Of a stretch of DNA of 64,000 bases, positions 953 through 61,208 are shown piece after piece; the stretch's first letter is position 1, and every line of letters begins with the position of its first letter. The DNA is taken from the NCBI GenBank assembly GCA_900319225.1, contig ONNV01000003.1:248001-312000 (forward strand), written 5' to 3'. The notes beneath the pieces are model-generated. The model did no database searches. It was given only the letters and a program-made list of their open reading frames with translations, and was not told where the DNA came from. Origin of the DNA: an uncultured Prevotellaceae bacterium. GTDB taxonomy: Bacteria > Bacteroidota > Bacteroidia > Bacteroidales > Bacteroidaceae. Both the position numbers and the translations under genes were made by a program.

Positions 953-992
953 TGTGGAAAAGGGGACAGTCCCCTTTTCCACCTTTTCCACA
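953..992. repeat. REP-like palindrome, class A, with truncated second arm
   Basis: Positions 953-982 form a nearly perfect palindrome centred on GGGGACAGTCCCC with GTGGAAAA/TTTTCCAC arms. A second, truncated arm (CTTTTCCACA) at 983-992 abuts the stop codon of the gene ending at 993. The same core occurs at 4127, 12477, 12542, 25020, 25262, 39157 and 53954. It looks like a decayed REPIN. Confidence 0.85.
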
Positions 993-3900
993 TTATTTGT
1001 CACATACGGCACGGACAGAATAGCTATTTATCCTGTCACTGGACGATATATGTATCTTGGACTGACTGTACCTGCCCAAATCACTTACATCCTCTCCTCC
1101 GTCCAGTTCTATCTCATCAAGCGTTCCGAATTCAAACTCACTGAATTCCAGTACGACACAACCACTCCACATGAGTTGTTGCCGGGAACTTAAGTCTGAT
1201 GTCATATAATAGCCATCATCATAGTCTATATCCTCAAATAAGGATCCCCAGGAAGCAGAATTATATGGAAGGAATATGGAGTTACCGGTATATCCTGGAA
1301 CCTTGCTTGTTATACGATAGCCCTTGACTCCGTTTATGGAATCCTCAGTCCAGACACAATTATCATACAGTTCCTTATACTCCTCCTTGGTAGGCATACG
1401 CCATTTGCCTCCCCAGTTTGCCGTGGCCGCATCATCCTCAGCTTCCAGTCTGGTCTTGCCATCCACGTACGGACCATTTTGATCAATTGTATATTTGGAG
1501 AACCACCACTTGTTTTCATCCTTGAAGGCCTTCATATGTTTGTAGTTGTACTGTGAGTAATAGGTTTTGGGTGCGGTCTCACCCCATGCAAAACGTGCTC
1601 CGATTTCCTGGGGGCTGTCAGCACCTACATTGCAGTCTGCCCATAGCACGCTTAATCCCAGATCTACCATGACATTACGCTTGGGCTTTTTTACCGGATC
1701 GGGAGCAATTACCGGCTTGTTACCTGACGGATTATCATCCAATACAGGCCTTATTGTACAACCATTCCATCTTCTGTCAACACCTATTGCCTGACCTAGT
1801 GTCGCTGTCCAGTAACATAATTCAGCTCCCTTATTGCTTACCAATCCACCCTCAGAAGAATAACTCTCATGATCACTTATATAGCCAGCAGCAGGAAGGA
1901 ATATGCTGTTACCCTCATATCCCGATACATTACTGGTTATGATATATCCCTCAAGACGTCTTTCAACATAAAATTCGGTGCTGTCTATCACGATTGTAAC
2001 CGGCGTCCAGGTACATTTGGTCTTGAGTTCCCAAAGTTCATCGGCGGTAGGCGTACGCCAGCCTCCGCCCAGCAGTACGGTTGCCGCATCATCCTCCGGA
2101 TCAAGAATATCCTTGTAATCAAGCGGGTATTTGGGCCCTCCCAATTGACTGGGAGTGGTATAGAAATTATACTTGGACATCTGGTCTGTATATTCGCCGA
2201 ACTTGTATTTCTTGCCGTCATAAACACCGGCCTTGGGAGCGGTCTCACCCCAGGCAAAATATCCGCCAGCCTCATTTGGATCCGATGCTCCAAGATTGGC
2301 CGATGCCCACTTTACGCTGAGTCCCAAGTCAACAGCCTCAGGTACAGGCAGTGTTACCTTCACCTTCATCTGTGCCTTTCGTCCCTCACTCTCAGCAGTA
2401 ATTATGCATTCGCCCTGGCCTACTGCAGTAACAGACCCGTCACTGTTTGTTGCCACAATCTCCGGTGCCGATGAACTCCATATGATTGAAGTGGGCTTGA
2501 CCGGACGGCCCGACGGCATCATTAGAGCCTCCAGATTGTGAATCTCACCATAATGCAGGTCCAGTTTCTCATCTGACAAAGAGAGTGATTTAAACATATC
2601 ATCCGTAAGGGAGCGAACTGGACGGATGTTCAATCCCATGAATCTGGTTTCAAAGCCATTAGGTTTGCTATATTGGGACATTCTCAGCACCTCAACAGGC
2701 GACATCTCTGACAAGCTTCCCATCATTCCGTTTACAGTACCAATGGTACTGAAGCAACTTCCTCTGGTACCCCTGCCTGCAATCGATGTCCAGAGAGACA
2801 GTTGCTTGCCTCTGTCCATGGGCTCATTGCCGTTCATACGGCCTGAATACGGAATGAAAATGCTACATCCCTCAAATCCGGGAACATTGCTTGTAAAACG
2901 CATTCCGGCTACTCCATTTACGGTCGCGGTATCATATGTACAGTTTGACATCAATTCTACAAACTCATCGGTTGTAGGTATATGCCAGGCATCACCCAAC
3001 ATTACGGTAGCTGCATCATCGGTCGGCTCAAGACGGTTCAGATTGTCGGCCTTAAGTCCCTGATGAGACATACCGTCAATGGTATATTTATCCATACCTT
3101 GATCCTGTTGGAAAGTACAGTAACGGTAATTGTTCCAGGAGAAGAACTCCTTGGGCTCAATCTCGGCCCATGCATAATAGTCACCGTAACTTTCCGGGGC
3201 CGATGCTCCCAAATTGGATGTAGCCCACAGCACACTAAGCCCCAAATCCACATATTCATACTCATGAGGAGTTACAGTCACGGAGCATTCAGCAGTCTTT
3301 CCGTATGCAGTTACCTGTAACTTGCAACTACCCGGACCGGCAGCTACCAAAAGGCCGTTCTCAACAACTTTTATCACCTTTTCATCGGAGGATTTCCAGG
3401 TGCAGGCGCTGTTAACATTACGCTTTCCCATCATCACTTCCAGTCTGGTACTTGTACCCTGCTGTATTGACAGTTTCTTTGTTTCCAGAGTGATTTTGGA
3501 TACCTCTTTGCCAGACAACGGCATTACCATGCGAACCGACTGTTCTGCCCAATTGTTCTCGCTGTGCCATTCATCGGCTCCAAGCTTAAAGTTGAAACCG
3601 TAAGCGGCTTCACCATCCGGTTGCACTCCTGGTGTGGAGCTCCAATATGCAGCATATGCGTTATACGCTTCAACACGACTATTATTGAGCCAGCCGGCAG
3701 CCGGCAGGAATATGCTCCGGTCCGTATATCCTTTTATCTTACTTGTTACCTTATATCCCTCTATTCCATTCTGCTCGGTCCATTTCCAGGAGCAGTATCT
3801 GCGCAGTTCCTCCCACTCGGCCCTGATACCCATACGGCTGCCGTCGGTTGTCACGATTGCCATTGCATCGGGCCAACGGTAATACTCTCCGGCGGGTCTT

Positions 3901-4034
3901 TGATCTGATATGCCGGTATTCAACGTACTCCACTTTACACTCAGTCCCAGGTCAACATACTCCATGTCCTGGCCTGTTACGCCACAGCATATAGCACAGA
4001 ACAAAGCAATTACTGAAAGGCGGATAAATCTCAT
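993..4034 (-). CDS. Secreted four-repeat protein (Fib_succ_major/DUF1566-like) with two Ig-like domains
   Basis: 1013 residues from the ATG at 4034, which sits just before a signal peptide (residues 1-22, ending CGVTGQ) and after AGGA. An in-frame start further upstream would add 12 implausible residues. Four copies of a module begin VDLGLSV.W at about residues 27, 262, 567 and 790. Each continues with an AWGET-like loop, DDAAT, WR.PT..E and GYEGNSIFLPAAG-like motifs. This resembles the Fibrobacter succinogenes major paralogous domain found in many Prevotella and Bacteroides surface proteins. Two BIG2-like Ig domains lie at about 178-254 and 484-562 (WKSSD and WSSSAPEIV cores). It is probably a cell-surface or secreted binding protein, with no identifiable ligand. 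It has its own promoter at 4068-4098. Confidence 0.8.
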   Translation of the reverse strand: MRFIRLSVIALFCAICCGVTGQDMEYVDLGLSVKWSTLNTGISDQRPAGEYYRWPDAMAIVTTDGSRMGIRAEWEELRRYCSWKWTEQNGIEGYKVTSKIKGYTDRSIFLPAAGWLNNSRVEAYNAYAAYWSSTPGVQPDGEAAYGFNFKLGADEWHSENNWAEQSVRMVMPLSGKEVSKITLETKKLSIQQGTSTRLEVMMGKRNVNSACTWKSSDEKVIKVVENGLLVAAGPGSCKLQVTAYGKTAECSVTVTPHEYEYVDLGLSVLWATSNLGASAPESYGDYYAWAEIEPKEFFSWNNYRYCTFQQDQGMDKYTIDGMSHQGLKADNLNRLEPTDDAATVMLGDAWHIPTTDEFVELMSNCTYDTATVNGVAGMRFTSNVPGFEGCSIFIPYSGRMNGNEPMDRGKQLSLWTSIAGRGTRGSCFSTIGTVNGMMGSLSEMSPVEVLRMSQYSKPNGFETRFMGLNIRPVRSLTDDMFKSLSLSDEKLDLHYGEIHNLEALMMPSGRPVKPTSIIWSSSAPEIVATNSDGSVTAVGQGECIITAESEGRKAQMKVKVTLPVPEAVDLGLSVKWASANLGASDPNEAGGYFAWGETAPKAGVYDGKKYKFGEYTDQMSKYNFYTTPSQLGGPKYPLDYKDILDPEDDAATVLLGGGWRTPTADELWELKTKCTWTPVTIVIDSTEFYVERRLEGYIITSNVSGYEGNSIFLPAAGYISDHESYSSEGGLVSNKGAELCYWTATLGQAIGVDRRWNGCTIRPVLDDNPSGNKPVIAPDPVKKPKRNVMVDLGLSVLWADCNVGADSPQEIGARFAWGETAPKTYYSQYNYKHMKAFKDENKWWFSKYTIDQNGPYVDGKTRLEAEDDAATANWGGKWRMPTKEEYKELYDNCVWTEDSINGVKGYRITSKVPGYTGNSIFLPYNSASWGSLFEDIDYDDGYYMTSDLSSRQQLMWSGCVVLEFSEFEFGTLDEIELDGGEDVSDLGRYSQSKIHISSSDRINSYSVRAVCDK

Positions 4035-4067
4035 AAATCCTTTTAAAATTTTTATTTGACAACGGCA

Positions 4068-4098
4068 CAAAGTTATAATCTCACCATGCCTTGAACAA
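4068..4098 (-). promoter_or_regulatory. Bacteroidetes-type promoter of the four-repeat protein
   Basis: On the minus strand TAACTTTG (4075-4068) matches the -7 consensus TAnnTTTG exactly. TTG at 4098-4096 lies 20 bases upstream and fits the -33 TTTG/TTG element. The start codon is about 33 bases downstream of the -7 element. The match is to a published consensus; no transcript evidence is available. Confidence 0.6.
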
Positions 4099-4126
4099 GC
4101 AATATGCGTTGCAAAGATGTTGCAAA

Positions 4127-4156
4127 TGTGGAATTGGGGACAGTCCCCTTTTCCAC
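4127..4156. repeat. REP-like palindrome, class A, single copy
   Basis: A 30-base imperfect palindrome with GTGGAA/TTCCAC outer stem, a TT/TT internal mismatch and the GGGGACAGTCCCC centre. It is identical to the left arm at 12477-12506. It starts 3 bases beyond the radical SAM stop codon. The internal mismatch inside a stem is typical of REP hairpins. Confidence 0.88.
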
Positions 4157-4159
4157 ATT

Positions 4160-5236
4160 TTATGCGTTCTTAATCTTGAGATAGTTGCAGGAGAGCATCC
4201 GTCCATTTTCGCCACGCAGATGCATTGCGCCGCCCTGGCAGTAGCGCCAAACCTTGCAGCTGGCACATTCATCCTTTTTCATCCAGCTGCGGTCACGGTA
4301 TACCTTGAAACCGCGGTCCCATATCTGCCAGAAATCATCGGTATGCACGTTGCCCTGGTGATAATCGCCGCGCACGCTCAGGCAGCCCGATATAGAGCCG
4401 TCATTAAGGATGGAGGCTACGCTCACACCTGCTACGCAACGGAAAAGGTGGTCGCGTACCACACCCTCATACGGGCCCACGAATCCCTCGCATGAGTAGT
4501 TAAGGTCTATCCTGCCCTCTCGGCGTACGGCCGCAATGAAATTCATCAGGTCTACGTACTGCTTATCGGTCAGTTTGAGTTCGTCATCTGTAGCGCCTCG
4601 GCCCATGGGGGCTACCGTGAATATACGCCAGCGGGTCACGCCGCGGCTTATCAGGTACTCCTTGAAACGGTTCAGATATCCGTAGTTGCGCTGATTCACA
4701 CATGTGATGAGGTCCCAGGTGAGACCTTTATGCTCTTTGATATAGTCTATGGCTGCGTCGGCACGCTTAAAACTCAGTTCGCTGCCGCGCATCCAGTTGT
4801 GCTCATCCTCAAAACCGTCAAAACTCATGGCAATGGTGTCAAGGCCGGTTTCAACAAGTTCATTAAGCTTGTCACGGGTAAGCAGCATTCCGTTGGTTAC
4901 CATTCCCCACAGGAATCCGCGTTTCTTGATTTCGGCGCCCACCTGGACTATATCAGTACGTACCAGCGGCTCTCCGCCGGTGGTGATGACTACACAATGG
5001 CCACGGTCAAAATCCTTGGGGCAGCTGTCCAGAACACCCAGAAGGTCCTCTATGGGCGGGTCTGTAAGTCCGGCTGTCTTGCGGCAGTCACTTCCGCAAT
5101 GACGGCAACTAAGGTTACAACGCAGTGTGCATTCCCAGAACAGCTGGCTCAGCTTATGCTCCAGTATCTGTGTTCGTGTGGCTGCACGGCCAGTCTCAAA
5201 CAAGAGTCTTTGGGGGAGAGAGATCTTACAATTCAT
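4160..5236 (-). CDS. Radical SAM/SPASM enzyme of the rSAM/lipoprotein type (TIGR04133-like)
   Basis: 358 residues. The radical SAM cluster motif CxxxCxxC is C40-C44-C47 (CNLSCRHC), with an additional C36. TTGGEP at 85-90 is the SAM-binding GGE-type motif. The C-terminus has a SPASM-like auxiliary cluster region with C324, C327, C333 and C350, plus two more cysteines near 267 and 285. SPASM proteins modify peptides or proteins using extra Fe-S clusters. The upstream neighbour, 6 bases away, is a small lipoprotein with a YGPP motif. From memory this pair matches the TIGRFAM entries TIGR04133 (enzyme) and TIGR04134 (lipoprotein). The substrate is therefore probably that lipoprotein, which is inference. 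It would act in the cytoplasm before export. No classical peptide precursor is visible. Confidence 0.85.
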   Translation of the reverse strand: MNCKISLPQRLLFETGRAATRTQILEHKLSQLFWECTLRCNLSCRHCGSDCRKTAGLTDPPIEDLLGVLDSCPKDFDRGHCVVITTGGEPLVRTDIVQVGAEIKKRGFLWGMVTNGMLLTRDKLNELVETGLDTIAMSFDGFEDEHNWMRGSELSFKRADAAIDYIKEHKGLTWDLITCVNQRNYGYLNRFKEYLISRGVTRWRIFTVAPMGRGATDDELKLTDKQYVDLMNFIAAVRREGRIDLNYSCEGFVGPYEGVVRDHLFRCVAGVSVASILNDGSISGCLSVRGDYHQGNVHTDDFWQIWDRGFKVYRDRSWMKKDECASCKVWRYCQGGAMHLRGENGRMLSCNYLKIKNA

Positions 5237-5242
5237 CTTATA

Positions 5243-5581
5243 CTATTGTTGTCTGCTTTTGCGCAGTTTGTCAATTTCAGCATCCAGTGAGTCGGCCTGC
5301 TCACGCATACGCAGGTTTTCATCGGCCCTACGTTTCATCACCTCGGGCGGCCCGTAAATGAGCGCGCGTGACCTCCTGTCAAGCTCTTGCTTTAGGGAGT
5401 CTGACTTGATCTGCATCTCCCGGATTCTCTCCTGCGGATCTACCTTTACATCCTCCCGGTCAGTTGCCACGGCCTTCTTGCTCCTGCATGCTCCCAGCAG
5501 CGCTACCAGCGCTACCCCTACGGAGCAGACTGCAACAGCCCACGCCCTGGAGAGAATTATCCTTGTCTTACCGTGTGACAT
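5243..5581 (-). CDS. Small lipoprotein partner of the radical SAM enzyme (TIGR04134-like)
   Basis: 112 residues. A hydrophobic signal ends in a perfect lipobox L29-G-A-C32, followed by RSKK. The mature part is charged and helical: two segments with DSLKQELDRR and DSLDAEIDKL suggest a short coiled-coil hairpin. They flank the motif IYGPPEVM at 75-82. YGPP is the only non-helical, conserved-looking element and is my candidate for the site modified by the neighbouring radical SAM enzyme. It follows the propeller lipoprotein gene by 11 bases and precedes the enzyme by 6, so all are probably one transcript. Assignment to TIGR04134 rests on memory of the family and on the pairing. It could simply be an envelope anchor protein unmodified by the enzyme. 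Confidence 0.75.
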   Translation of the reverse strand: MSHGKTRIILSRAWAVAVCSVGVALVALLGACRSKKAVATDREDVKVDPQERIREMQIKSDSLKQELDRRSRALIYGPPEVMKRRADENLRMREQADSLDAEIDKLRKSRQQ

Positions 5582-5592
5582 AATATCTGAGT

Positions 5593-7029: not shown

Positions 7030-7033
7030 TTTA

Positions 7034-8761: not shown

Positions 8762-8781
8762 ATTTGGACTCAAAAGCACCG

Positions 8782-8789
8782 CAAAATTA
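8782..8789 (-). promoter_or_regulatory. -7 element for the DUF6057/rSAM unit
   Basis: TAATTTTG on the minus strand fits TAnnTTTG exactly, 20 bases before the ATG at 8761. TCTG at 8813-8810, 20 bases upstream, is a one-mismatch -33 element. It is one arm of a 9-base inverted repeat with the rsmI promoter. Confidence 0.5.
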
Positions 8790-8820
8790 GGAAAAAAGAA
8801 GTTCGTACGCAGAATTTCAC

Positions 8821-10831: not shown

Positions 10832-12475
10832 ATGGCAAATTTCAAGTATGCGCCCATGTTCCAGCTGGGCAAGGATGAGACAGAGTACTATCTGCTCACC
10901 AAGGATTACGTAAGCGTAAGCGAGTTTGAGGGCAAACCCATTCTGAAGGTTCAGAAGGAGGGCCTCACAAAGATGGCCAATGCCGCATTCCGCGATGTAA
11001 GTTTCCTGCTGCGCCGCTCACACAACGAGCAGGTTGCCAAGATACTGCGTGACCCTGAGGCATCAGACAATGACAAGTACGTAGCTCTGACATTCCTTCG
11101 CAACGCCGAGGTATCGGCCAAAGGTAAGCTGCCTCTGTGCCAGGATACCGGTACCGCAATCATCCACGGTGAGAAGGGCCAGCAGGTATGGACCGGATTC
11201 TGCGATGAGGAAGCTCTGTCTGAGGGCGTATTCAAGACATACACTGAGGAGAACCTGCGTTACAGCCAGAACGCTCCCCTGGATATGTACAATGAGGTGA
11301 ACACCAAGTGCAACCTGCCCGCACAGATTGACATCGAGGCAACCGAGGGTATGGAGTACCGATTCCTGATGGTTACCAAGGGTGGCGGATCGGCCAACAA
11401 GACATATCTGTATCAGGAGACCAAGGCCCGCATCCAGAACCCCGGCACTCTGATTCCTTTCCTGGTTGAGAAGATGAAGAGCCTGGGTACAGCTGCCTGC
11501 CCTCCCTATCATATCGCATTCGTAATAGGCGGTACCAGTGCCGAGAAGAACCTGCTCACCGTCAAGCTGGCATCAACTCATTACTATGACTCACTGCCCA
11601 CCACAGGCGATGAGACCGGCCGCGCATTCCGCGATGTTGAGCTTGAGAAACAGCTGCTGCAGGAGGCTTACAAGATTGGTCTGGGCGCACAGTTCGGCGG
11701 TAAGTACATGGCACACGATGTACGCGTAATCCGTCTGCCGCGTCACGGTGCAAGCTGCCCCATAGGTCTGGGCGTAAGCTGCTCGGCCGACCGTAACATC
11801 AAGGCCAAGATCAACAAGGACGGTATCTGGATTGAGAAGATGGATGACAAACCATACGAGCTGATTCCTGAAGAGCTCCGTCAGGCCGGCGAGGGCGATG
11901 CCGTAAAGGTTGACCTGAACCGCCCCATGGCCGAGGTCTGCAAGCAGCTCTCACAGTATCCCGTAAGCACACGTCTGAGCCTTAACGGCACAATCATAGT
12001 AGGCCGTGACATAGCCCACGCCAAGATCAAGGCACGCCTTGATGCAGGTGAGCCCATGCCTCAGTACCTCAAGGAGCACCCCATCTACTACGCAGGTCCC
12101 GCCAAGACACCTGCAGGTATGGCTTGCGGCTCAATGGGTCCCACCACTGCCGGACGTATGGATCCCTACGTAGATGAGTTCCAGGATAACGGCGGATCAA
12201 TGATCATGCTGGCCAAGGGTAACCGCTCACAGGCCGTTACCGATGCCTGCAAGAAGCACGGAGGTTTCTACCTGGGTTCAATTGGCGGTCCCGCTGCCAT
12301 CCTTGCCCAGAACAACATCAAGTCAATCGAGTGCGTCGAGTACCCGGAACTTGGCATGGAGGCAATCTGGAAGATTGAGGTTGAGGACTTCCCGGCCTTT
12401 ATCCTGGTAGATGACAAGGGAAACGATTTCTTCAAGCAGCTCAAGCCCTGCGAAGGTTGCAGCATTTTGAAATAA
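10832..12475 (+). CDS. fumA: Class I [4Fe-4S] fumarate hydratase
   Basis: 547 residues, the same size as E. coli FumA/FumB. The three cluster cysteines are C103 in PLCQDTGT, C223 in GTAACPPYH and C317 in GVSCSADRN. They line up with E. coli C105, C224 and C318. The single chain fuses the alpha and beta halves. It interconverts fumarate and malate in the cytoplasm. In Bacteroidales this serves the reductive branch toward succinate, which fits an anaerobe using an oxygen-sensitive enzyme. It lies 3 bases after hflX, so it is probably in that transcript. A REPIN starts 2 bases after its stop codon. The choice between fumA and fumB naming is arbitrary. Confidence 0.95.
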
Positions 12476-12476
12476 A

Positions 12477-12571
12477 TGTGGAATTGGGGACAGTCCCCTT
12501 TTCCACATGCTAAAGTGGACGACAGTTGAAAAAATAATCACGTGGAAAAGGGGACTGTCCCCAATTCCACA
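12477..12571. repeat. REPIN: inverted pair of class A REP sequences
   Basis: Two perfect 30-base inverted copies (12477-12506 and 12542-12571) with core GGGGACAGTCCCC flank a 35-base spacer. Each arm is itself a hairpin. The element lies between the fumarase stop (12475) and the holB start (12586), so it is in the middle of a co-oriented gene series. It may trim or terminate the upstream message. Confidence 0.92.
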
Positions 12572-12585
12572 TTTTCAAAACAGTC

Positions 12586-13723: not shown

Positions 13724-14851
13724 ATGGATCAGGATTTCATACTCAATAACGGAAGCGGCGGAATCTGCTGCAAGGGTTGCGGCCGCGGAATGGGACAACT
13801 CCACTCTTTTGACTATCTGGCAGGCGTGCCGGGGGCCGATGAGGGCGATTATGTTGAGGTACAGTTCAAGAACACCCGCAAGGGTTTCTTTATCAACTCC
13901 AACAAACTGCCTCTGGAGAAAGGCGATATCGTAGCTGTGGAATCCAATCCCGGGCACGACATTGGAACCGTAACCATGACCGGACGTCTGGTTAAGCTCC
14001 AGATGAAAAAGGCCAACCTGCGCCCCGACATTGAGATCAAGCGCGTCTACCGCAAGGCGCGTGAGGTTGATATGGAGAAGTATGCCGAGGCCAAGGCACG
14101 CGAGCATGACACCATGATCCGCTCCCGCCAGATAGCCAAGGACCTGGGTCTGGAGATGAAGATAGGTGACGTGGAGTATCAGGGTGACGGACTCAAGGCC
14201 ATATTCTACTATATAGCCGATGGCCGCGTGGATTTCCGCCAGCTCATCAAGGTGCTGGCCGATGCATTCCATGTGCGTATTGAGATGAAACAGATAGGTG
14301 CCCGCCAGGAGGCAGGCCGCATAGGTGGCATCGGCCCCTGCGGCAGAGAGCTCTGCTGCGCCACCTGGATGACCAGCTTTGTATCAGTCTCAACCGGCGC
14401 CGCCCGTTTCCAGGACCTCTCCATGAACCCGCAGAAACTGGCCGGCCAGTGCGCCAAGCTCAAGTGCTGCCTCAACTATGAGGTCGATGCCTACGTCGAG
14501 GCCCAGAAGGGATTCCCCTCACGCGACATCCCCTTGGAGACAATGGACAGCACCTACTACTTCTTCAAGGCCGATATCCTGAACGGACAGCTATCCTACT
14601 CTACCGATAAGGTGTTTGCCGCCAACGTGGAGACAATCACCCCCGCTCGCGCGCTTGAAATCATAGGCATGAACCGCAAGGGCCAGAAACCCCTGAGCCT
14701 TGATGAGAATGCCGTCCACACCGATTCCCGCATAGAGAACGATATCCTCACCGACGGCGATCTGTCCCGCTTTGACAAAAAGAAAAAGAAGAAAAAGCAT
14801 CACAACCGCCCGCACGGCCCACGCCCCGACAACCGTCCCCCCAAGGAATAA
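13724..14851 (+). CDS. ricT: PSP1-domain protein RicT (YaaT family)
   Basis: 375 residues. N-terminal cysteines are C15, C16 and C19 (GGICCKGCGRG). The PSP1 domain occupies roughly 25-250 with GPCGRELCCATW and GQCAKLKCCLNYE, the cysteine-rich motifs of RicT/YaaT. In Bacillus the Ric complex carries Fe-S clusters and modulates RNase Y and sporulation signalling; the role in Bacteroidales is not established. The C-terminal tail is Lys/His/Pro rich (FDKKKKKKKHHNRPHG) and probably disordered. In many relatives gldH follows this gene. Here the next objects are a REPIN and hairpins and then the convergent rodA, so gldH is absent at this place. Confidence 0.9.
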   Translation: MDQDFILNNGSGGICCKGCGRGMGQLHSFDYLAGVPGADEGDYVEVQFKNTRKGFFINSNKLPLEKGDIVAVESNPGHDIGTVTMTGRLVKLQMKKANLRPDIEIKRVYRKAREVDMEKYAEAKAREHDTMIRSRQIAKDLGLEMKIGDVEYQGDGLKAIFYYIADGRVDFRQLIKVLADAFHVRIEMKQIGARQEAGRIGGIGPCGRELCCATWMTSFVSVSTGAARFQDLSMNPQKLAGQCAKLKCCLNYEVDAYVEAQKGFPSRDIPLETMDSTYYFFKADILNGQLSYSTDKVFAANVETITPARALEIIGMNRKGQKPLSLDENAVHTDSRIENDILTDGDLSRFDKKKKKKKHHNRPHGPRPDNRPPKE

Positions 14852-14854
14852 AAA

Positions 14855-14955
14855 GGGGCACAAAAGGGACGGTTCTATCTGTGCCCTTAAGAAGGATTTG
14901 AAATCAGTTGATTATAATCAAAAGGGCACAGATAGAACCGTCCCTTTTGTGCCCC
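14855..14955. repeat. REPIN: inverted pair of class B REP sequences
   Basis: Perfect 34-base inverted arms (14855-14888, 14922-14955) contain GGGACGGTTCTATCTGTG and end in GGGGCAC/GTGCCCC. The spacer is 33 bases. Each arm can fold on itself through GGGCACA/TGTGCCC. The element starts 4 bases after the ricT stop. The same class is seen at 61109-61208. Confidence 0.92.
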
Positions 14956-25018: not shown

Positions 25019-25019
25019 A

Positions 25020-25291
25020 TGTGAAATTGGGGACAGTCCCCTTTTCCACTAACATTCGGGCGTAAATAGAAAGAGGACCTTGTGCCTCTGAAAGTCTCGC
25101 ACCCACGCGAGACCAGTGGGAGGGGCCCGCGACAAAAAATATCGATTCTGGAACGATCAGTTTCGGAATCGATATATTTTGTTGTGGGAGGGCCGGCCGA
25201 AGGCCGCTTTCGAGAGGTACAAGGTCCTCTTTCTATTTACGCCCGCTTACGTATTCTTTATGTGGAAAAGGGGACTGTCCCCAATTTCACA
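25020..25291. mobile_element. Composite palindrome: REPIN with an apparent 187-bp inverted-repeat element in its loop
   Basis: Outer arms 25020-25049 and 25262-25291 are perfect 30-base inverted class A REP sequences. Inside, 25058-25083 and 25219-25244 are perfect 26-base inverted repeats (GGGCGTAAATAGAAAGAGGA at the start). Further nested stems: CCTCTGAAAG/CTTTCGAGAGG (25085-25094, 25207-25217), TCTCGC/GCGAGA (25095-25112), and a 17-base pair with one mismatch (25132-25148, 25166-25182). Removing 25058-25244 leaves a 25-base spacer, close to the other REPINs. No open frame of note is present. The element sits between two converging genes, 2 bases after one stop and 4 before the other. Confidence 0.85.
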
Positions 25292-25294
25292 TTT

Positions 25295-33495: not shown

Positions 33496-33569
33496 TGGGC
33501 CATCTAGGGCTTGAACCTAGGACCTCCAGATTATGAGTCTGTTGCTCTAACCAACTGAGCTAAAAGCCC
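33496..33569 (-). tRNA. tRNA-Met (anticodon CAT)
   Basis: 74 bases, all arms present. The acceptor is GGGCTTT/ATGGCCC with a T-T mismatch and a T-G pair. The D arm is GCTC/GAGC. The anticodon loop is CTCATAA with an A-G mismatch at the top of its stem. The T arm is CTAGG/CCTAG with loop TTCAAGC. CCA is not encoded. The D-loop and GGGC start suggest elongator rather than initiator Met. An Ile2 tRNA (lysidine-modified CAT) cannot be fully excluded. It has its own promoter and terminator. Confidence 0.93.
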
Positions 33570-39119: not shown

Positions 39120-39156
39120 ATTAATTATAAATTAATAAAAAAAGACGAGCTGCAAC

Positions 39157-39206
39157 AGGGACAGTCCCCCTGTGTCATTTCAAAATGTCACAGGGGGACT
39201 GTCCCT
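39157..39206. repeat. REP-like palindrome, class A variant, compact
   Basis: A 50-base near-perfect palindrome: 18-base arms 39157-39174 and 39189-39206 containing GGGACAGTCCCC/GGGGACTGTCCC, with TGTCATTT/AAAATGTCA continuing the stem inward. It lies 10 bases beyond the stop of the barrel gene. The core matches class A, while the flanking arms (CTGTG) are a separate subtype. Confidence 0.85.
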
Positions 39207-39216
39207 AATGGGTCAT

Positions 39217-40860
39217 TCAAAACCTGTAGGTAGCGCCAACAAGTATGCTAGGCTTTATAGCGCGATACCCTGCATAGTAATACCAGTCGCCACCCGCAAG
39301 ACGGCTGCCGGTAAGATAGAATGACAGGTTGGGGCGGAAATCATAGTCAACCGTAAGGGCCAGGTCATTGATCATGGGCATACGCTCACCCGCCTGCTTG
39401 CGGAATGTCATCATGCGGTATGTGAGCATGGCGTCCAGTCCCGGCATTATATTCACCTTACCGAACAGCGATCCGTCAAACACCGGCTTGAATGCCAGGT
39501 TTCCGGGCTTATAATGACCTGTATATCCGTTGATTGTCATATCCATCTTAACCTGGGCGCGGTCAGCGAACTGCATATCGGCATCCACACGCAGATAGAA
39601 TACATCCAGTGCTTCCTGATCCAGCATTGAGGATACTATAAGACTGTCACTTACGGTCTGGAAAAGCTCATCGGCAGTATGGCGGTAACCTCCCTTACCG
39701 GAGAGTGTGAGCCATGTACCCTGGCTGTATGATGCGCCTATCCATGCGTCAAACAGAGTGTAGCCGTCCTTAATGCGCTTGGCCTCAGACCAGTAAGGTG
39801 ACAAACCTGCAAGCGTGCGCATGCTGTTGTCAATAATACCGCCGGTAACGCCCGATGTAAGACTGACACTCTCGTTTACGCTGTATGACGCGGTTACCAT
39901 GGGTGACATGAGGAACTTGCAGCCGGCTCCGTTACGGAAATCCAGGTTAAGTCCCAGGTTGGCATCCAGGTTACCCCATGAGTTCTTCCAATACGGAGTG
40001 ATGGTGACGGCGGTAAAGTCTGAGTAGTTGCAACCGTACACGCCCTGCCAGTCATACGCGGCACTCTTCTGGCGGTATTCCAGTCCGCCTATACCTCCAA
40101 TTGCACGGACAGGCATTGAGATTCCGGCCTCAAGACGCAGCAGACGCTCGCTGTTGTCCCTTCTGGTACCGGCCAGTTTAAGACCGTTACGGGAGAGCCA
40201 CTCCATTCCCAGGCTGGCATGCCACCCTATGCTGTCAATCTCTCCGGCACCCCATACGCCCAGACTCTCACGTCCTGTGTTCTGCATCAGCTTGCTTATA
40301 TCCTCCATGGCGGGAGTAAGGGCTGTACCGGGTCTGTAATTGAAATGGGAGTGACCCAGCGATGCATCGGCACCAAGGGTGAACTGATCAAAACGGTGTG
40401 AGTAATCCACATCAAGATCACCGTTCATCATCCTTGATTTCCATTTGCCGTCAGGCTTGGTAGCCCACGCATCCATCAGTCCGTAGACCTTGAGCTCATC
40501 ACGGTCCGATATACGCCAGTTAAAGTCCAGCAGGCCGTCATGCACGTTCCTAAGGCCCCAGCCAAAGCGTACCAGACCCTGGTATCGGGCCACGGTTACA
40601 TCATCCGAGCTCTCTAAGAACGCACCCATGGGAGCACGCTTGAGGCTCTGCATGGGATTGGGCTCGGTAAGGTAGCTCACCTGGACAGCCTTGCGCTCCG
40701 ATACCGGTTTCTGCGGTACCGGCATTATCTTCTCTGTCTTGGTGACGGTGGGGTTATATGCACCCTCAATGGTCAGTGACCTGGAGGGGAGTCCGTCCTG
40801 TCCATATGCTGCCGTACAGCATACAGCACCCAATATTGCCAGTATAGTATTTCTCATCAT
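39217..40860 (-). CDS. Outer-membrane beta-barrel protein (TonB-receptor-like barrel)
   Basis: 547 residues. Signal peptide to about 20 (CCTAAYG before QDG). There is no plug domain. From about residue 85 the sequence alternates hydrophobic and polar residues in many amphipathic strands (LVRFGWGLRNVHDGLLDFNW, LKVYGLMDAWATK). It ends VGATYRF with the terminal Phe of outer-membrane proteins. The cargo is unknown. It starts 5 bases after the stop of a large TPR protein, a pairing I have seen in other Bacteroidetes. The TPR protein may assist assembly or form a complex with it, which is inference. Confidence 0.75.
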   Translation of the reverse strand: MMRNTILAILGAVCCTAAYGQDGLPSRSLTIEGAYNPTVTKTEKIMPVPQKPVSERKAVQVSYLTEPNPMQSLKRAPMGAFLESSDDVTVARYQGLVRFGWGLRNVHDGLLDFNWRISDRDELKVYGLMDAWATKPDGKWKSRMMNGDLDVDYSHRFDQFTLGADASLGHSHFNYRPGTALTPAMEDISKLMQNTGRESLGVWGAGEIDSIGWHASLGMEWLSRNGLKLAGTRRDNSERLLRLEAGISMPVRAIGGIGGLEYRQKSAAYDWQGVYGCNYSDFTAVTITPYWKNSWGNLDANLGLNLDFRNGAGCKFLMSPMVTASYSVNESVSLTSGVTGGIIDNSMRTLAGLSPYWSEAKRIKDGYTLFDAWIGASYSQGTWLTLSGKGGYRHTADELFQTVSDSLIVSSMLDQEALDVFYLRVDADMQFADRAQVKMDMTINGYTGHYKPGNLAFKPVFDGSLFGKVNIMPGLDAMLTYRMMTFRKQAGERMPMINDLALTVDYDFRPNLSFYLTGSRLAGGDWYYYAGYRAIKPSILVGATYRF

Positions 40861-53916: not shown

Positions 53917-53953
53917 CTTGCACCAAGAATCAACTCACCAAATTTTCCAGTTG

Positions 53954-54040
53954 CACCGGGGACTGTCCCTTTTGGTCACCTGATAATCTCAGAATTAGTC
54001 ACTTCGTCTAGCACGTGCCAAAAGGGACTGTCCCCGTGTG
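53954..54040. repeat. REPIN: inverted pair of class A-like REP sequences
   Basis: Arms 53954-53979 and 54015-54040 share GGGGAC(T/A)GTCCCTTTTGG and are inverted around a 35-base spacer. They differ at several positions, so this is the most diverged pair. It is also the only one not beside a stop codon: it sits 47 bases beyond hisS, past the hisS terminator. Confidence 0.82.
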
Positions 54041-54051
54041 TCTGAGCGCTG

Positions 54052-54078
54052 AAAAGAAAAATACGCAGAACCTGCGTA
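54052..54078 (-). terminator. Intrinsic terminator after hisS
   Basis: The stem TACGCAG/CTGCGTA (54062-54068, 54072-54078) with a 3-base loop is followed on the minus strand by TTTTTCTTTTC. It starts 9 bases after the hisS stop. Confidence 0.85.
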
Positions 54079-54087
54079 AACTCAAAA

Positions 54088-55443: not shown

Positions 55444-55447
55444 TGTA

Positions 55448-56161: not shown

Positions 56162-57435
56162 TATTCGCGAACAATTGTCTGGTTACGGTCAGGACCTACT
56201 GACACAATGCTTACGGGAGTCTCAAGGAACTCTTCCAGGAATGAGATGTAGTTGTTGAACTCCTCGGGGAATTCATCCTCATCATGAACCTTGGTCAGGT
56301 CTGTCTTCCAGCCCGGAAGCTCCTCATAAACGGGCTCTACGCCCTCGCAGTCAAACGGGAACTCATCAGTCTGTGTGCCGTCGGGCAGTTTGTAAGCCAC
56401 GCAAGCCTTGATGGTGGGGAATACGTCAAGTACGTCACTCTTCATCAGGATCAGGTTGGTTACACCGTTCAGGCGTACTGCATAACGCAGGGCAACCAGG
56501 TCAACCCAACCGCAACGGCGGCGACGGCCTGTTACTGCACCGAACTCCTGACCGCGGTCAGAGAGCTTCTCGCCATCGGCATCAAACAGCTCTGTGGGGA
56601 ACGGACCGCTACCTACACGTGTGCAGTAGGCTTTCATGATTCCGTAAACCTTACCGATATTGCGCGGAGCGACACCCAGACCGGTGCAGGCACCTGCGCA
56701 GATGGTGTTTGATGATGTTACGAACGGATATGAACCAAAGTCTATGTCAAGCATTGTACCCTGGGCACCCTCGCAGAGGATGGTCTTACCCTCACGCAGC
56801 AGGTTAGCTACAAAGTGCTCGCTGTCCACGAACTTGAACTGTTTCATGTACTCTATACCCTCACGCCATGCCTTCTCAAGGGGAGCCAGGTCATACTCAA
56901 AGTTCAGGCTCTTGAGAGTGCGCTCATGGGCTGCGCGTGCGGCTGCATAACGCTCCTCAAAGTCAGGACGCAGCAGGTCACCTACGCGCACACCTGTACG
57001 GGCCACCTTGTCGGTATATGTGGGGCCGATGCCACGACCTGTGGTACCAACCTTGTTGGATCCCTTTGATGCCTCAAGGGCACTGTCCATAAGACGGTGT
57101 GTAGGCAGTATCAGATGTGCCTTCTTGGATATGAGCAGACGGCTCTTAAGGTCTATGCCAGCAGCCTCAAGAGCCTCGGCCTCAGCCTTGAAGAGGGCTG
57201 CATCCAGTACCATACCGTTGCCAATGATATTCTGCTTGTTACCCTGGAATACACCTGAAGGGATGGACTTGAGCACGAACTTCTTGTTATCAAAGATAAG
57301 TGTATGGCCGGCGTTGGGACCACCCTGGAAACGGGCTACCACATCATAACGCGGAGTCAGCACATCCACTACCTTACCCTTGCCTTCATCACCCCACTGC
57401 AATCCCAGCAGGACATCAATCTTTTCTGTTTTCAT
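56161..57435 (-). CDS. purA: Adenylosuccinate synthetase PurA
   Basis: 424 residues. LLGLQWGDEGKGK at the N-terminus (P-loop with catalytic Asp), GPNAGHT, GTTGRGIGPTY, EGAQGTMLDIDFGSYPFVTSSN and GRRRRCGWVDL. It joins IMP and aspartate with GTP on the way to AMP, complementing purH elsewhere in the window. Its ATG overlaps the fur stop (4 bases). Confidence 0.97.
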   Translation of the reverse strand: MKTEKIDVLLGLQWGDEGKGKVVDVLTPRYDVVARFQGGPNAGHTLIFDNKKFVLKSIPSGVFQGNKQNIIGNGMVLDAALFKAEAEALEAAGIDLKSRLLISKKAHLILPTHRLMDSALEASKGSNKVGTTGRGIGPTYTDKVARTGVRVGDLLRPDFEERYAAARAAHERTLKSLNFEYDLAPLEKAWREGIEYMKQFKFVDSEHFVANLLREGKTILCEGAQGTMLDIDFGSYPFVTSSNTICAGACTGLGVAPRNIGKVYGIMKAYCTRVGSGPFPTELFDADGEKLSDRGQEFGAVTGRRRRCGWVDLVALRYAVRLNGVTNLILMKSDVLDVFPTIKACVAYKLPDGTQTDEFPFDCEGVEPVYEELPGWKTDLTKVHDEDEFPEEFNNYISFLEEFLETPVSIVSVGPDRNQTIVRE

Positions 57436-57920
57436 TTCTTGTCTTTATCTTTTTTGTTCAATCTATTCTGTTTTCTCTTTATGGCTGCCGAGCACTTGCT
57501 GCACAATCCGTACACGGTAAGTGACCAGCCTGCCATGGTAAACCTGCGCTTGCGCATGCTCTCAATCTGACGGCGTACCGAGTCATCGGTAACATCGGTC
57601 ACACTGCCGCAGCTTGTGCAGGTAAGCCTTATGGTGCTCCTGTTTTTCCAGCACTTCTCATACCGGACCAGACCGCTAAGGCATATCTTTCTTACCAAAC
57701 CGGCATCCTCAAGCAGTCCCAGGCCGTTGTAAACCGTAGCGCGGCATACCCTGAAATTCTGCCGGGACTCCATTATCTCCTGGAGAGTCTCAGGAGTGAA
57801 CGGACCATCGGTCTGCAACACTGCATCCAGAACGGCCCTGCGCTCGGGAGTGTTCCTGAGATTCTGCAGACGCAAATGCTCTGCCAGCATCTCACGCATC
57901 TCCTGGTTCCTGTCACTCAT
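57432..57920 (-). CDS. Fur-family regulator lacking the usual histidine cluster
   Basis: 162 residues. Winged helix with RNTPERRAVLDAVLQTDGPF and CRATVYNGLGLLEDAGLV. The structural zinc site is C101/C104 and C140/C143. The HHH stretch that normally precedes the first CxxC reads KNRSTIRLTC, so the common regulatory metal site is incomplete. The C-terminal tail is Lys/Asn rich. From memory Porphyromonas gingivalis has a divergent Fur (Har/PgFur) that responds to heme, so a non-iron signal is possible. Which metal or ligand it senses is open. It overlaps the AlkD-like gene and purA by 4 bases each. Confidence 0.85.
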   Translation of the reverse strand: MSDRNQEMREMLAEHLRLQNLRNTPERRAVLDAVLQTDGPFTPETLQEIMESRQNFRVCRATVYNGLGLLEDAGLVRKICLSGLVRYEKCWKNRSTIRLTCTSCGSVTDVTDDSVRRQIESMRKRRFTMAGWSLTVYGLCSKCSAAIKRKQNRLNKKDKDKK

Positions 57921-58471
57921 CCCTCAGCTACAAATCCCAGTGCGGTTCTGGCCGCCTGGGCGCACATCAGGTCAGAACCGTTGATGGCGGCCTGAGCCTG
58001 GTCTTTCAATTCCTGAACATAACGCGGACCCATCTCACGCCCTGCGCGCAGCATATGAGCCAGCGTAAGGAAACCGCAATATCGGGTCATGTCGTTATCT
58101 GAAGCTATCCAGCGGAAAGCCGCCTCAGATGCTCCTTTCATCCGGCTGAAAAGGTACATGCTGCATACCTCAGCCAGGTCAGGATACTTAATCTGCTCTA
58201 TCCAGAGGTCTGCCAGATCCGTCTGGAACTGGTCCTCGGGGTAGATAAGCGCCGCAAGAATCCTGCACTCGCGGATATCCTCTTTCCAGAGCGCAACCGC
58301 AAGTTCAGGATCTTTACCCTGCTCTGATGCTATCTGTTTAAGTCCCGGCAATCCAACACCGAAATTAAGCTTATAACCCATGCCGGCCTCCCTCATGTCT
58401 GCAGAGGCTATGCCGTTCATGTTAAGTCTCAGTTTCTGCTTAATCTCCAGAATACTTTCCCGGGTTGTCAT
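57917..58471 (-). CDS. AlkD-like HEAT-repeat protein (DNA alkylation repair family)
   Basis: 184 residues, all helical. The pattern fits AlkD-like HEAT repeats: LPGLKQIASEQGKDPELAVALWKEDIRECRIL, then LADLWIEQIKYPDLAEVCSMYLF and AFRWIASDNDMTRYCGFLTLAHML. AlkD removes alkylated purines without base flipping. The family also has non-catalytic members, and this one is shorter than AlkD (about 237). Repair activity is therefore uncertain. Its stop overlaps the fur start. Confidence 0.7.
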   Translation of the reverse strand: MTTRESILEIKQKLRLNMNGIASADMREAGMGYKLNFGVGLPGLKQIASEQGKDPELAVALWKEDIRECRILAALIYPEDQFQTDLADLWIEQIKYPDLAEVCSMYLFSRMKGASEAAFRWIASDNDMTRYCGFLTLAHMLRAGREMGPRYVQELKDQAQAAINGSDLMCAQAARTALGFVAEG

Positions 58472-58496
58472 TATAGTTCAGTGGCGTCTAAAAAGT

Positions 58497-58925
58497 TTAT
58501 TTGGCGAGATGGCGTTTCTTAAACTGATGAGGGGCCTCGCCCTTCTCCTTGAAGAATGCCGCATAGAACGACTGGCGGTTTGAGAACCCTGACATCGTTC
58601 CAATCTCCTCCATTGTCTTGTCCAGGTAACGCTTGTCAGTGAGGTAATGCACTGCGTCGCGTACTCTGAATTCATTCACCAGACTGGAATAGTTCATTCC
58701 GAATCTTGAATTGATCACGGCCGACAGGTATCTGGGGTTGGTATTCAGATCCTCGGCCAGCTGCTTTGCCGAATAATCCGGATCGCGGTACTTCTTCTGT
58801 GCAACCACGATTGTCAGGATACCGTCATACAGCTCATCGGCAAGTTCTGCACGGATAAGGCCCCTGTAACCAGCTTCCTTTTCGGCCTTTTCCCTGATTT
58901 TGTAAGGCTTAGTGTTAGTTTCCAT
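58497..58925 (-). CDS. AraC-type DNA-binding protein (helix-turn-helix only)
   Basis: 142 residues. The AraC HTH occupies about 40-138: DYSAKQLAEDLNTNPRYLSAVINSRFGMNY, then EIGTMSGFSNRQSFYAAFFKEKGEAPHQFKK. Only about 40 residues precede it (KIREKAEKEAGYRGLI), so there is no cupin or other sensor domain. It may need a partner or act constitutively. It is separated from the AlkD-like gene by 25 bases and runs divergently from dnaG. Confidence 0.88.
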   Translation of the reverse strand: METNTKPYKIREKAEKEAGYRGLIRAELADELYDGILTIVVAQKKYRDPDYSAKQLAEDLNTNPRYLSAVINSRFGMNYSSLVNEFRVRDAVHYLTDKRYLDKTMEEIGTMSGFSNRQSFYAAFFKEKGEAPHQFKKRHLAK

Positions 58926-59044
58926 AATGTAAATTTACGTCACAAAATAAATGATTTTCCCGCAGAGTACGCACGCGCAAACGTCAATATTATTTAAAAA
59001 AGGCACAACTGCCCGAACATGACTTCCAAACCATGGATTTTTTG

Positions 59045-59052
59045 TAATTTTG
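59045..59052 (+). promoter_or_regulatory. -7 element for dnaG
   Basis: TAATTTTG matches TAnnTTTG, 23 bases before the dnaG ATG. No TTTG at -33. The 150-base gap to the divergent AraC-type gene otherwise holds nothing I can support. Confidence 0.5.
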
Positions 59053-59075
59053 GCATCAATACACCTACCCCCTGA

Positions 59076-61109
59076 ATGATAGACCAGCTCACAATAGAAA
59101 AGATACTCGATGCTGCCAACATTGTTGATGTGGTATCGGAATTCGTGACCCTGCGCCGCCGCGGTGTCAACTATGTGGGACTGTGTCCGTTCCATAACGA
59201 GAAGACCCCGTCATTCTACGTCTCTCCGTCCAAGGGGATCTGCAAGTGTTTCAGTTGCGGCAAGGGCGGCAACGCCATCCATTTCCTTATGGAGCATGAG
59301 CAGATGTCATTCCAGGATGCTGCCGAGTGGCTGGCAAACAAATACGGAATTCCGTTCCGCAAACGTGAGCTCACCGAGAGTGAGAAAGCCCTGCAGAACG
59401 AGCGCGAGTCACTGTTCATCACCAATCAGTTTGCACTGGATTTCTTTAAGGACACCCTGCTCAACACTGACAAGGGCCGAGCCATAGGTCTGGCCTATTT
59501 CCGCAAGCGCGGATTCCGTGATGACATACTTGAAAAGTTCTATCTTGGTTACTGTCCCGATGAGCCCGATGCGCTGGCACGTACCGCTCTGGCCAAAGGC
59601 TACACCAAGGAGAACCTGATTAAGACAGGACTCTGCTACGCGAAAGACGACAACGGAGCCTTGCGTGACCGTTTCCGCGGCCGCGTGATATTCCCGGTCC
59701 ACTCCATATCGGGCAAGGTGGTGGCATTTGGAGGCCGCATAATGAGCGCCGAATCCAAGGTAGCCAAATACGTGAACTCGCCCGAGTCAGTGATATACTC
59801 CAAAAGCCGTGAGCTCTACGGACTCTATCAGGCCAAGCAGGCCATAGTACGCAAGGACCGCTGTTTCCTGGTTGAGGGTTATGCCGATGTCATAAGCATG
59901 TTCCAGAGCGGAGTGGAGAACGTGGTCGCATCCAGCGGCACGTCGCTCACACCCGGCCAGATACGTCTGATACACCGTTTCACCAATAACATAACCGTAC
60001 TTTATGACGGTGACAAGGCCGGCATCAAAGCCTCTCTGCGCGGCATTGACATGCTGCTGGCCGAGGGCATGAACGTAAAGGTCCTGCTGCTGCCCGACGG
60101 CGAGGACCCCGACAGCTTTGCACAGGGCCGCGGCGCCACCGCGTTCCAGCAGTACATTGACACCCATCAGGTAGATTTCATCCGCTTCAAGGTGAACCTG
60201 CTTATGGAGGATGCGGCCGATGACCCCTACAGTCGCAGTGAGCTTATCAAGAGCATAACACAGAGCATATCGGTCATACAGGATCCCATTGTACGCTCAG
60301 TCTATATAACTGAGTGCAGCCAGATAATGAAGATTGATGAGCGTCTGCTCATTAATGACGTGAACCGCCGTCAGCGCGAGCAGGCACAGGCCGCTGCACA
60401 GCCCACGCGCCCAGCCCAATCACCCGATGAAAACGGACAAAATCCTGAACCCACAGAGGTGGAAACAGATAATCCCGACGCTCCCGCAGAGCCCGCACCC
60501 GAGCCGGAGATATCGGCCGAGGATAAGCTGCGTCAGGATATACGCGCGCTCAAACGTGAAGGTCTGGGCCCCATGATGGAAAAGGAGCGTCTGCTGTCAC
60601 AGCTCATTGTAAGATACGGCGGCAAGGTGATGTGCACCTATCAGGATGATGAGGGTCAGGAGCTGGATATGACCGTAGGGCAGTTCATAGTAGGCTCACT
60701 CCAGAATGACGGACTTGAATTCCGCCATCCGGTCTACAAGCGTTTTGTGGAGATCATGGCAGAACATCTTGAGGATAAGGATTTTAATTCCCAGAAGTTC
60801 TTCATGTCCCACCCCGAGACATTCGTAAGTCTGACCGCTGCCAGCCTCATGGAGGAGCGCTACCAGCTAAGCAACATATTCAAGGACAGCAAACCCGCTG
60901 ATGATGAGACGCAGCTGCTCAAGCTGACACGCCATATCATGGCCGATTACCAGATGGAGGTGGTTCGGCTGGAGATAAAGGATGTGGAGAAAAAGATCCA
61001 GGAGGCTGAGGTTGGGGATCTGGCCGAATTGCAGACCCGGTACCAGCAGCTTCTTATGGCTCGCGCCCAGCTGTCTAAGGAATTGGGGGAGCGAATAATC
61101 AATCTTTAG
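59076..61109 (+). CDS. dnaG: DNA primase DnaG
   Basis: 677 residues. The zinc-binding domain has C37, H40, C58 and C61 (CPFHNEKTPSFYVS, KCFSCGKGG). The TOPRIM/RNA polymerase core has VAFGGRIM, VEGYADVISM, SSGTSLT and LYDGDKAGIKA. A Pro/Glu/Ala-rich linker lies at about 440-490 (PTEVETDNPDAPAEPAPEPE). The C-terminal helicase-binding region follows. It synthesises RNA primers at the replication fork. Its TAG stop overlaps the first base of a class B REPIN. Confidence 0.97.
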   Translation: MIDQLTIEKILDAANIVDVVSEFVTLRRRGVNYVGLCPFHNEKTPSFYVSPSKGICKCFSCGKGGNAIHFLMEHEQMSFQDAAEWLANKYGIPFRKRELTESEKALQNERESLFITNQFALDFFKDTLLNTDKGRAIGLAYFRKRGFRDDILEKFYLGYCPDEPDALARTALAKGYTKENLIKTGLCYAKDDNGALRDRFRGRVIFPVHSISGKVVAFGGRIMSAESKVAKYVNSPESVIYSKSRELYGLYQAKQAIVRKDRCFLVEGYADVISMFQSGVENVVASSGTSLTPGQIRLIHRFTNNITVLYDGDKAGIKASLRGIDMLLAEGMNVKVLLLPDGEDPDSFAQGRGATAFQQYIDTHQVDFIRFKVNLLMEDAADDPYSRSELIKSITQSISVIQDPIVRSVYITECSQIMKIDERLLINDVNRRQREQAQAAAQPTRPAQSPDENGQNPEPTEVETDNPDAPAEPAPEPEISAEDKLRQDIRALKREGLGPMMEKERLLSQLIVRYGGKVMCTYQDDEGQELDMTVGQFIVGSLQNDGLEFRHPVYKRFVEIMAEHLEDKDFNSQKFFMSHPETFVSLTAASLMEERYQLSNIFKDSKPADDETQLLKLTRHIMADYQMEVVRLEIKDVEKKIQEAEVGDLAELQTRYQQLLMARAQLSKELGERIINL

Positions 61110-61208
61110 GGGCACAAAGGGGACGGTTCTATCTGTGCCCTTTTGGAGCTGATTCAAATTTGCAGAATAAAAAAAAGGGCACAGATAGAACCGTCCCCTT
61201 TGCGCCCC
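61109..61208. repeat. REPIN: inverted pair of class B REP sequences
   Basis: Arms 61109-61144 and 61173-61208 contain GGGGACGGTTCTATCTGTG in inverted orientation with one mismatch near the ends (GCGCCCC against GTGCCCC). The spacer is 28 bases. It starts on the last base of the dnaG stop codon and lies between converging dnaG and folE. Its arms read ACAAAGGGG where the 14855 copy reads ACAAAAGGG, in both arms. Confidence 0.9.

Follow-up and report, generated by a model that had tools for sequence, protein, structure and literature searches.

Repetitive extragenic palindromic (REP) elements, and the REP-associated tyrosine transposases (RAYTs) linked to them, have been described in several studies. 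In the text of Di Nocera et al., (2013, PMC3733652) REPs are placed close behind stop codons, with GTAG ends that can supply a TAG, and a further type of gene is described, the TIRYTs, which are RAYT-like and have flanking inverted repeats carrying GGGGWSAS, some of which form repeat families. Nunvar et al., (2010, PMC2817692) describe GT(A/G)G heads in all of the REPs of their study. Among the transposases themselves, the account given by Quentin et al., (2018, PMC6006769) reports subclass 2.1 of the TnpA-REP proteins without REPs and characterises it by NHVH, W[EQ] or FQ, YIELNP or Y[IV]HLNP, a length of about 238 aa and an SS tail with a distal tail domain; their subclass 2.6, from Bacteroidetes, has NH[LIV]H, WQ, YIH[QN]NP, a length of about 179 aa and a median HuH-Y spacing of 82, and is associated with atypical structures that have copies in the host genome. 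As described by Corneloup et al., (2021, PMC8266576), a group 3 TnpA-REP reads loop bases plus a perfect stem. Here we compare with these systems a set of palindromes found at eight loci in a 64,000-nt stretch of an uncultured Prevotellaceae bacterium (positions 248,001 to 312,000 of contig ONNV01000003.1; the window, hereafter). We consider it very probable that they are mobile but non-autonomous, of the RAYT (TnpA-REP, HUH-Y1) kind and similar to REPs and to their paired form, REPINs, and that their loop sets them apart as a variant. What the analysis shows is how many copies there are and how they are built, that their arms are complementary, that they bracket RAYT genes, that loop and RAYT agree, that sites are filled or empty depending on the species and that stops lie adjacent.

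Loop-tagged units and their probable transposase

The unit consists of a stem of about 8 bp, which is free in sequence, and a loop of 13-17 nt beginning with GGGG (GGGGACGGTTC.. or GGGGACAGTCCCC), and it occurs singly or as inverted pairs that fold to one long hairpin. In the source genome (G000; 2.53 Mb, 85% complete) GGGGACWGTCCCC is present in 68 copies, against none for its control, GGGACRGTTCT in 165 against 3, and GGGGACRGTYC in 219 against 1 for the reversed sequence, so the extra genome-wide copies anticipated in an earlier note on this DNA exist and are not due to chance. Across 19 genomes of the genus the count of GGGGACRGTYC ranges from 1 to 219, and in 12 genomes from other families within the order it is 0 to 6, as a group not above controls. 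Two clusters were seen in passing: eight units with both loop types, a cluster that has arms of its own, lie between two divergent genes at G000:C9:151857-152366, and at G000:C5:279351-279853 there are six, of which the first three, spaced at about 50-60 nt, fall within a gene call of 802 aa and resemble a coding repeat.

Arm pairing was counted per column, because a score based on the longest perfect run could not be used for 52 of the 113 units. The 8-nt arms of the 78 distinct units of this genome pair in 66.3% of cells, compared to 24-52% when slid and a mean of 50.8% (maximum 55.9%) when right arms are shuffled, and those of 145 distinct units at RAYT loci pair in 68.8% (slid 33-44%; shuffled 41.3%, maximum 45.0%). 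At 49 loci the elements fold at a median of -53.0 kcal/mol, versus -18.9 for shuffled sequence. As the units were collected via the core, its constancy within the unit set is by choice, and the unbiased evidence for a constant loop comes from repeated words beside RAYTs and from the fit between loop class and RAYT tree. On that tree the four loop classes require 3 changes, the minimum possible (shuffled mean 12.6, with 0 of 200 as low), where labels were given by eye to 26 of 28 RAYTs, two of these 26 from separate readings of the flanks because the hairpin listing showed none of this type there. This comparison suggests that each transposase lineage holds its loop constant as the stem drifts.

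The palindromes share with REPs and REPINs a high copy number (219), a mostly extragenic position (53 of the 55 loci sampled below), inverted pairing and a RAYT bracketed by cognate units. A canonical GTAG or CGTC REP was rejected, since the diagnostic foot is absent: GTAG stands at the hairpin foot in 1 of 104 units and GTRG in 4, CGTC at the 5' foot in none, and GACG at the 3' foot in 4.

The assembled genome has a single Y1 gene, at G000:C11:93980-94780. It lies outside the window, in which no Y1 transposase was found, in agreement with the earlier note. Its product scores 49.4 bits with PF01797 and 51.8 bits with NF047646, the latter under the cut-off of 80, and the motifs NHVH (HuH) and YIHQNP (Y) indicate a Y1 fold that is RAYT-like rather than IS200. 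A model of the protein, with a mean pLDDT of 83.3, shows a Y1 core together with a helical tail; among PDB structures it best matches 4er8, the complex of a RAYT with a REP hairpin, and next the ISDra2 and IS608 TnpA proteins. Inverted pairs with the same core, resembling family F3 (families F1-F5 were named in this analysis), flank the gene on both sides (locus L016), and six RAYT loci of the genus in all have core units on both sides (L016, L090, L092, L094, L096 and L097), with arms that are distinct at each locus. The tie between palindromes and RAYTs proposed in the earlier note is supported because the RAYT is bracketed by same-core inverted pairs in this genome and in sister species, although the elements are not ordinary GTAG REPs. 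Within L016, at about 1042-1110, the flanking repeat extends into the 3' reading frame of the RAYT and gives the protein a short tail (KGTVLFGPKLKNGAK).

Further loci of the genus (L091, L093, L095, L098, L099, L100 and L109) have one exact core or none, and several of them carry variant loops (GGGGTCGTTT, GGGGACAGGTC, GGGGCCTGACCCC, GGGGTCTGACCCC). At least two GGGG-loop hairpins lie near the gene in 25 of 29 members of a second RAYT set, a count that is without a chance control and includes some hairpins that look accidental. With a limit of E 0.001, 23 of 37 genus genomes give a RAYT match, in a few cases a weak one. Outside the genus, RAYT loci of named genomes were compared, taking the best 80 of 410; judged by record title, 55 of them are Bacteroidota-like and 25 Bacillota-like. 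The former have 52 cores in the 46.8 kb within 450 nt of the gene versus 17 in the 175.8 kb more than 1 kb away, and the latter 27 in 22.2 kb versus 17 in 90.3 kb; the reversed control gives 3 and 0 near the gene and 7 and 0 far from it. At least two copies of GGGGAC are found nearby in 30 of the 55 and 15 of the 25 (reversed, 10 and 5). The core is thus enriched beside related RAYTs in Bacillota as well, examples being Desulfoscipio (L185) and Mesobacillus (L180).

A number of observations weigh against a RAYT-dependent origin. Two relatives, G007 (97% complete) and G008, have 61 and 50 core copies and neither gives a RAYT match by family or protein search; these copies may be orphan populations or reflect assembly gaps. 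Conversely, G016 and G018 possess RAYTs and only 2 copies each of the core, their loops being different, and the single RAYT of G000 belongs to the GGTTC loop class, which leaves its 68 GGGGACWGTCCCC copies with no matching symmetric-loop RAYT here. Most loci outside the genus are without an exact core, two or more being found nearby in only 15 of the 55 Bacteroidota-like and 6 of the 25 Bacillota-like cases. By the labels given by eye, loop classes S, R and T form single clades and class B does not, and the shuffle controls ignore relatedness. Finally, the evidence that the RAYT may cut the units and that copies may move is indirect and consists of the filled and empty homologous sites of different species.

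Placement behind stop codons

Placement was assessed in a 712-kb sample (C5 1-400000 and C9 1-312000), with genes called by our own ORF/dicodon script, which gives a coding share of 87-91% and hence a dense genome. The 113 core matches comprise 8 without arms, which were dropped, and 105 units that group into 56 loci, one more of which was armless and was dropped to leave 55. Two of these are in gene calls and 53 are intergenic, 27 of them in tandem, 22 in convergent and 4 in divergent gaps. For 38 of the 53 a stop codon is no more than 10 nt away, compared to 3.2 for random intergenic placement (maximum 11 in 2000 draws) and 21.1 for re-placement in the same gap (maximum 29 of 5000). Because our caller sometimes sets gene starts too far downstream, which inflates the gaps, the same-gap nulls were repeated with the most upstream starts; on this conservative basis the null rises to 22.8 (maximum 31 of 5000) and the excess at stops persists but is smaller. 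The effect is seen in gaps that hold 100 nt or more apart from the element, where 16 of 18 loci within 10 nt of a stop, against 1.3, become 11 of 13, against 0.9 expected if placement were uniform. Only 3 loci, or 4 with conservative starts, are as close to a gene start.

Of the 22 convergent loci, 10 have a stop within 10 nt at each end, and in 11 of the 53 loci (15 ends) the stop codon overlaps the element, either within an arm (ATGACCCA, TAACGC) or as a TA that the first base of the element finishes to TAG. Stop usage at the elements (22 TGA, 21 TAA, 5 TAG) is like that of all genes (228, 306, 36) and no fixed trinucleotide is found at ends away from stops; a stop trinucleotide as target motif was accordingly rejected. 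Unfiltered matches in stretches of a sister species, G010, gave 21 of 29 non-genic loci within 10 nt of a stop, with same-gap nulls of 3.8 and 6.2 and 8 loci in gene calls set aside, and those of G005 gave 2 of 4. A lack of excess at stops had been set beforehand as the outcome that would count against the stop preference claimed in the earlier note; with an excess in the sample beyond both types of null, and its recurrence between species, that claim stands.

The 3' junctions of five window genes were also read by eye in relatives of the genus, gene by gene because an automatic approach from gene calls yielded few orthologous gaps (32 with G010 and G005, 3 of them with their own element). Behind the dnaG stop a unit is present in 6 of 19 genomes (G000, G002, G006, G007, G009 and G032), with differing arms and loops, and 9 of the 13 genomes without one have short gaps. 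At the P0002 stop (n=20), units are within about 6 nt in G000, G011 and G031 and about 22 nt off in G005, with a fragment in G009; P0004 has a unit in 5 of 18 genomes (G000, G006, G011, G012 and G017); and P0005 (n=21) has units in G000 and G002 and a degenerate one in G031. At P0005 the TGA is directly followed by CTTTTTATTAAT in G006, G009, G010 and G011, and the G000 element sits between the two. Behind the stop of a fumarase-like gene, where three rows were left out of the set, the unit is found in G000 only (1 of 17), exactly behind the TAA, and seven other genomes carry different repeats there. Families therefore differ behind the same stop among sister species. No target duplication is visible at two clean filled and empty sites. 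A strict automatic search, which overlooks imperfect units that are plain to the eye, detected REP-type hairpins at 12 of the 94 junctions (180 nt each), versus 11 of 1880 for shuffled sequence; 9 of the 12 begin within 10 nt of the stop, and one, at 138 nt, is probably due to chance.

The repeats at the fumarase-like stop of the seven other genomes are palindromes of short tandem words (TTGAGAATT..AATTCTCAA, GTTGGCGTTGGC, CAACAGCCAACAG), a second class of stop-side repeats, found in L220, L222 and L226 (G005, G031 and G014), L221 and L225 (G032 and G011), and L223 and L227 (G007 and G012).

Within the window, palindromes are present at all eight positions given in the earlier note, which called them related; this holds for the core GGGAC[AG]GT[CT]C, common to all eight, and not for the arms, which belong to different families. 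Family F1 (arms ATGTGGAA..TTCCACAT) accounts for four loci: single palindromes at 952..983, with arms GTGGAA/TTCCAC and loop GGGGACAGTCCCC, where a minus-strand gene (gene end 993) has its stop 9 nt away, and at 4126..4157, where the stop of another (gene end 4160) is 2 nt away; an inverted pair at 12476..12572 (units 12476-12508 and about 12540-12572), abutting (0 nt) the TAA that ends the fumarase-like gene (10832-12475); and a pair at 25019..25292 between two converging genes, with distances of 0 and 2 nt from its ends to their stops. Between the units of this last pair is an extra palindromic insert, 25057-25245, a different repeat made of a 33-bp inverted repeat with nested hairpins. Inverted pairs of family F2 (arms GGGGCACA..TGTGCCC) lie at 14855..14955, 3 nt past the TAA that closes gene 13724-14851 and with arms GGGCACA/TGTGCCC and loop core GGGACGGTTC, and at 61109..61208, where the first base is shared with the stop of dnaG (59076-61109) and completes its TAG, an edge-to-stop distance of -1. 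A compact F4-type pair at 39147..39216, with outer arm ATGACCCA on one side, lies 0 nt behind the TGA of a minus-strand gene (39217-40860) and has a clean empty site in sister species. The sole locus not near a stop, among eight of which seven are within 10 nt as the earlier note had it, is a diverged pair at 53949..54045 (loop core GGGACAGTCCC), 42 nt from a stop and 32 nt from a start. Families F3 (GGGGGCCA..TGGCCCC) and F5 (TAACGC.., 21-bp units) occur outside the window. The statement that all elements avoid coding sequence is true of the window loci, none of which is in a gene call, and fails for the two loci in the wider sample. An Rfam scan of the window at gathering thresholds gave no match at the palindromes; its sole match was a tRNA gene at 33496-33569 on the minus strand.

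Origin of the stop-side position

For mobile elements of the RAYT kind, we infer the activity of the transposase, the reading of the loop, the route of copying and any effect on messenger RNA (mRNA). The RAYT would bind a single-stranded hairpin, recognising the sequence of the loop and the shape of the stem, and would cut and join single-stranded DNA as the IS200/IS605 TnpA proteins do, seeding copies. These could survive where reading frame and upstream signals escape damage, directly behind stops, which an arm often adjoins or supplies; an insertion preference for the stop side may contribute.

As to what causes this placement, slightly more weight is given to selective survival than to target selection. 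Selection alone, by which insertion is broad and only harmless copies that leave gene and upstream signal intact remain, has in our judgement about an even chance of being the explanation. The high coding density, the intergenic position of 53 of 55 loci and the rarity of loci near starts (3-4) are in keeping with it, as is the same pattern in other REP classes in the text of Di Nocera et al., (2013, PMC3733652), but the clustering within gaps (38 of 53, versus 22.8 and a maximum of 31 of 5000 on conservative starts) exceeds what gap size provides. The 11 of 13 elements near stops in long gaps would be expected if placement were set at insertion, with the RAYT, or a single-stranded state of DNA at gene ends, favouring stop-side sites, a serious contender that we hold at a little under even. 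Long convergent gaps, with 5 of 6 elements near a stop and no promoter to spare, and the occurrence of unlike families behind the same stops from species to species, also speak for targeting. Against it are the ordinary stop usage at the elements and the lack of a fixed trinucleotide at ends away from stops; moreover, conserved structures in the 3' untranslated region restrict the tolerated room, as at the P0005 junction, and long gaps may contain unrecognised genes or later insertions.

That the palindromes are immobile host signals for 3' ends, either terminators or mRNA stabilisers under selection, would agree with their position and with the folding energies of the 49 loci, and yet seems very improbable given their patchy occurrence among the 19 genus genomes (1 to 219 core copies), the other families or nothing behind the same stop in relatives, and the same units bracketing RAYT genes. 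A U-tract intrinsic terminator in particular was rejected, as a T run follows only 3 of the 48 stop-adjacent ends. It is slightly more improbable still that these are miniature inverted-repeat transposable elements of another transposase family with a secondary RAYT link (no search aimed at other transposases was made), since symmetric-loop copies without a matching RAYT class in G000, and copies without a RAYT match in G007, are set against symmetric loops of the same build that bracket RAYTs at nine labelled sister-species loci, one with GGGGACTGTCCCC (G032, L357).

Returning to RAYT-mobilised elements, a wider proposal, on which we are evenly divided, is that of a loop-tagged REP superfamily spanning Bacteroidota and Bacillota, in which RAYTs of the kind reported without REPs read a GGGG-initial loop, stems drift freely and copies settle at stops. 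One transposase lineage would then serve many arm families, loop changes would mark RAYT clades, and arms could provide a stop codon for one, or for both, of two converging genes. If true, RAYTs of a large class would have their cognate repeat population, the GGGG motif at the ends of these RAYTs would be accounted for, and numerous natural RAYT-hairpin pairs, with stems and loops that vary independently of each other, would offer a direct way to learn what the enzyme reads. The question of landing versus survival becomes testable in sister genomes, where the corresponding stops are followed by other families or by clean empty sites.

Comparison with described systems

A full-text literature search for five core strings gave no match, among those listed, that concerns bacterial repeats by title and abstract, and no description of the loop class or of its link to such RAYTs was found in the text of the papers examined on REPIN, RAYT, TIRYT or Prevotella palindromes. 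The RAYT groups that Bertels is said to have set out in 2017 reportedly correspond in one case, group 1, to Quentin subclass 2.1, and in another, group 5, to subclass 2.6.

This RAYT resembles subclass 2.1, the class reported without REPs in the account of Quentin et al., (2018, PMC6006769). When compared by description, it has the NHVH and FQ motifs, WSSW, a HuH-Y spacing of 58, a helical tail and a length (about 265 aa) like that subclass, but its Y motif is YIHQNP. With subclass 2.6, as outlined in the same source, it has in common a Y motif of the YIH[QN]NP type, an origin in Bacteroidetes and atypical structures with genomic copies, and it differs in FQ, in length (about 265 versus 179 aa) and in HuH-Y spacing (58 versus 82). 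By the text of Corneloup et al., (2021, PMC8266576), group 3 TnpA-REP reads 3-4 loop nucleotides plus GTAG, whereas the loop here has 13-17 nt and comes without GTAG.

Of the repeats themselves, those of the TIRYT/TIRtron system are close in that the GGGGWSAS consensus is fitted by GGGGACAG here, with GGGGACGG one letter off; going by the description in Di Nocera et al., (2013, PMC3733652), those are moderately abundant terminal repeats, in contrast to 219 copies, paired hairpins and swappable arms. The GTAG/CGTC REPs, REPINs and bacterial interspersed mosaic elements (BIMEs), as far as their descriptions go (PMC3733652, PMC2817692), are likewise high-copy short palindromes with inverted pairs, mostly intergenic, close to stops and linked to RAYTs, and in both cases the termini can supply a stop codon. 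They are unlike the present elements in their foot, since GTAG is found here in 1 and CGTC in none of the 104 units, and the constant part is instead a long loop on a free stem. Stop-side placement of REPs was thus already known; no account of the loop-tagged construction, or of its tie to this kind of RAYT, turned up in the texts searched.

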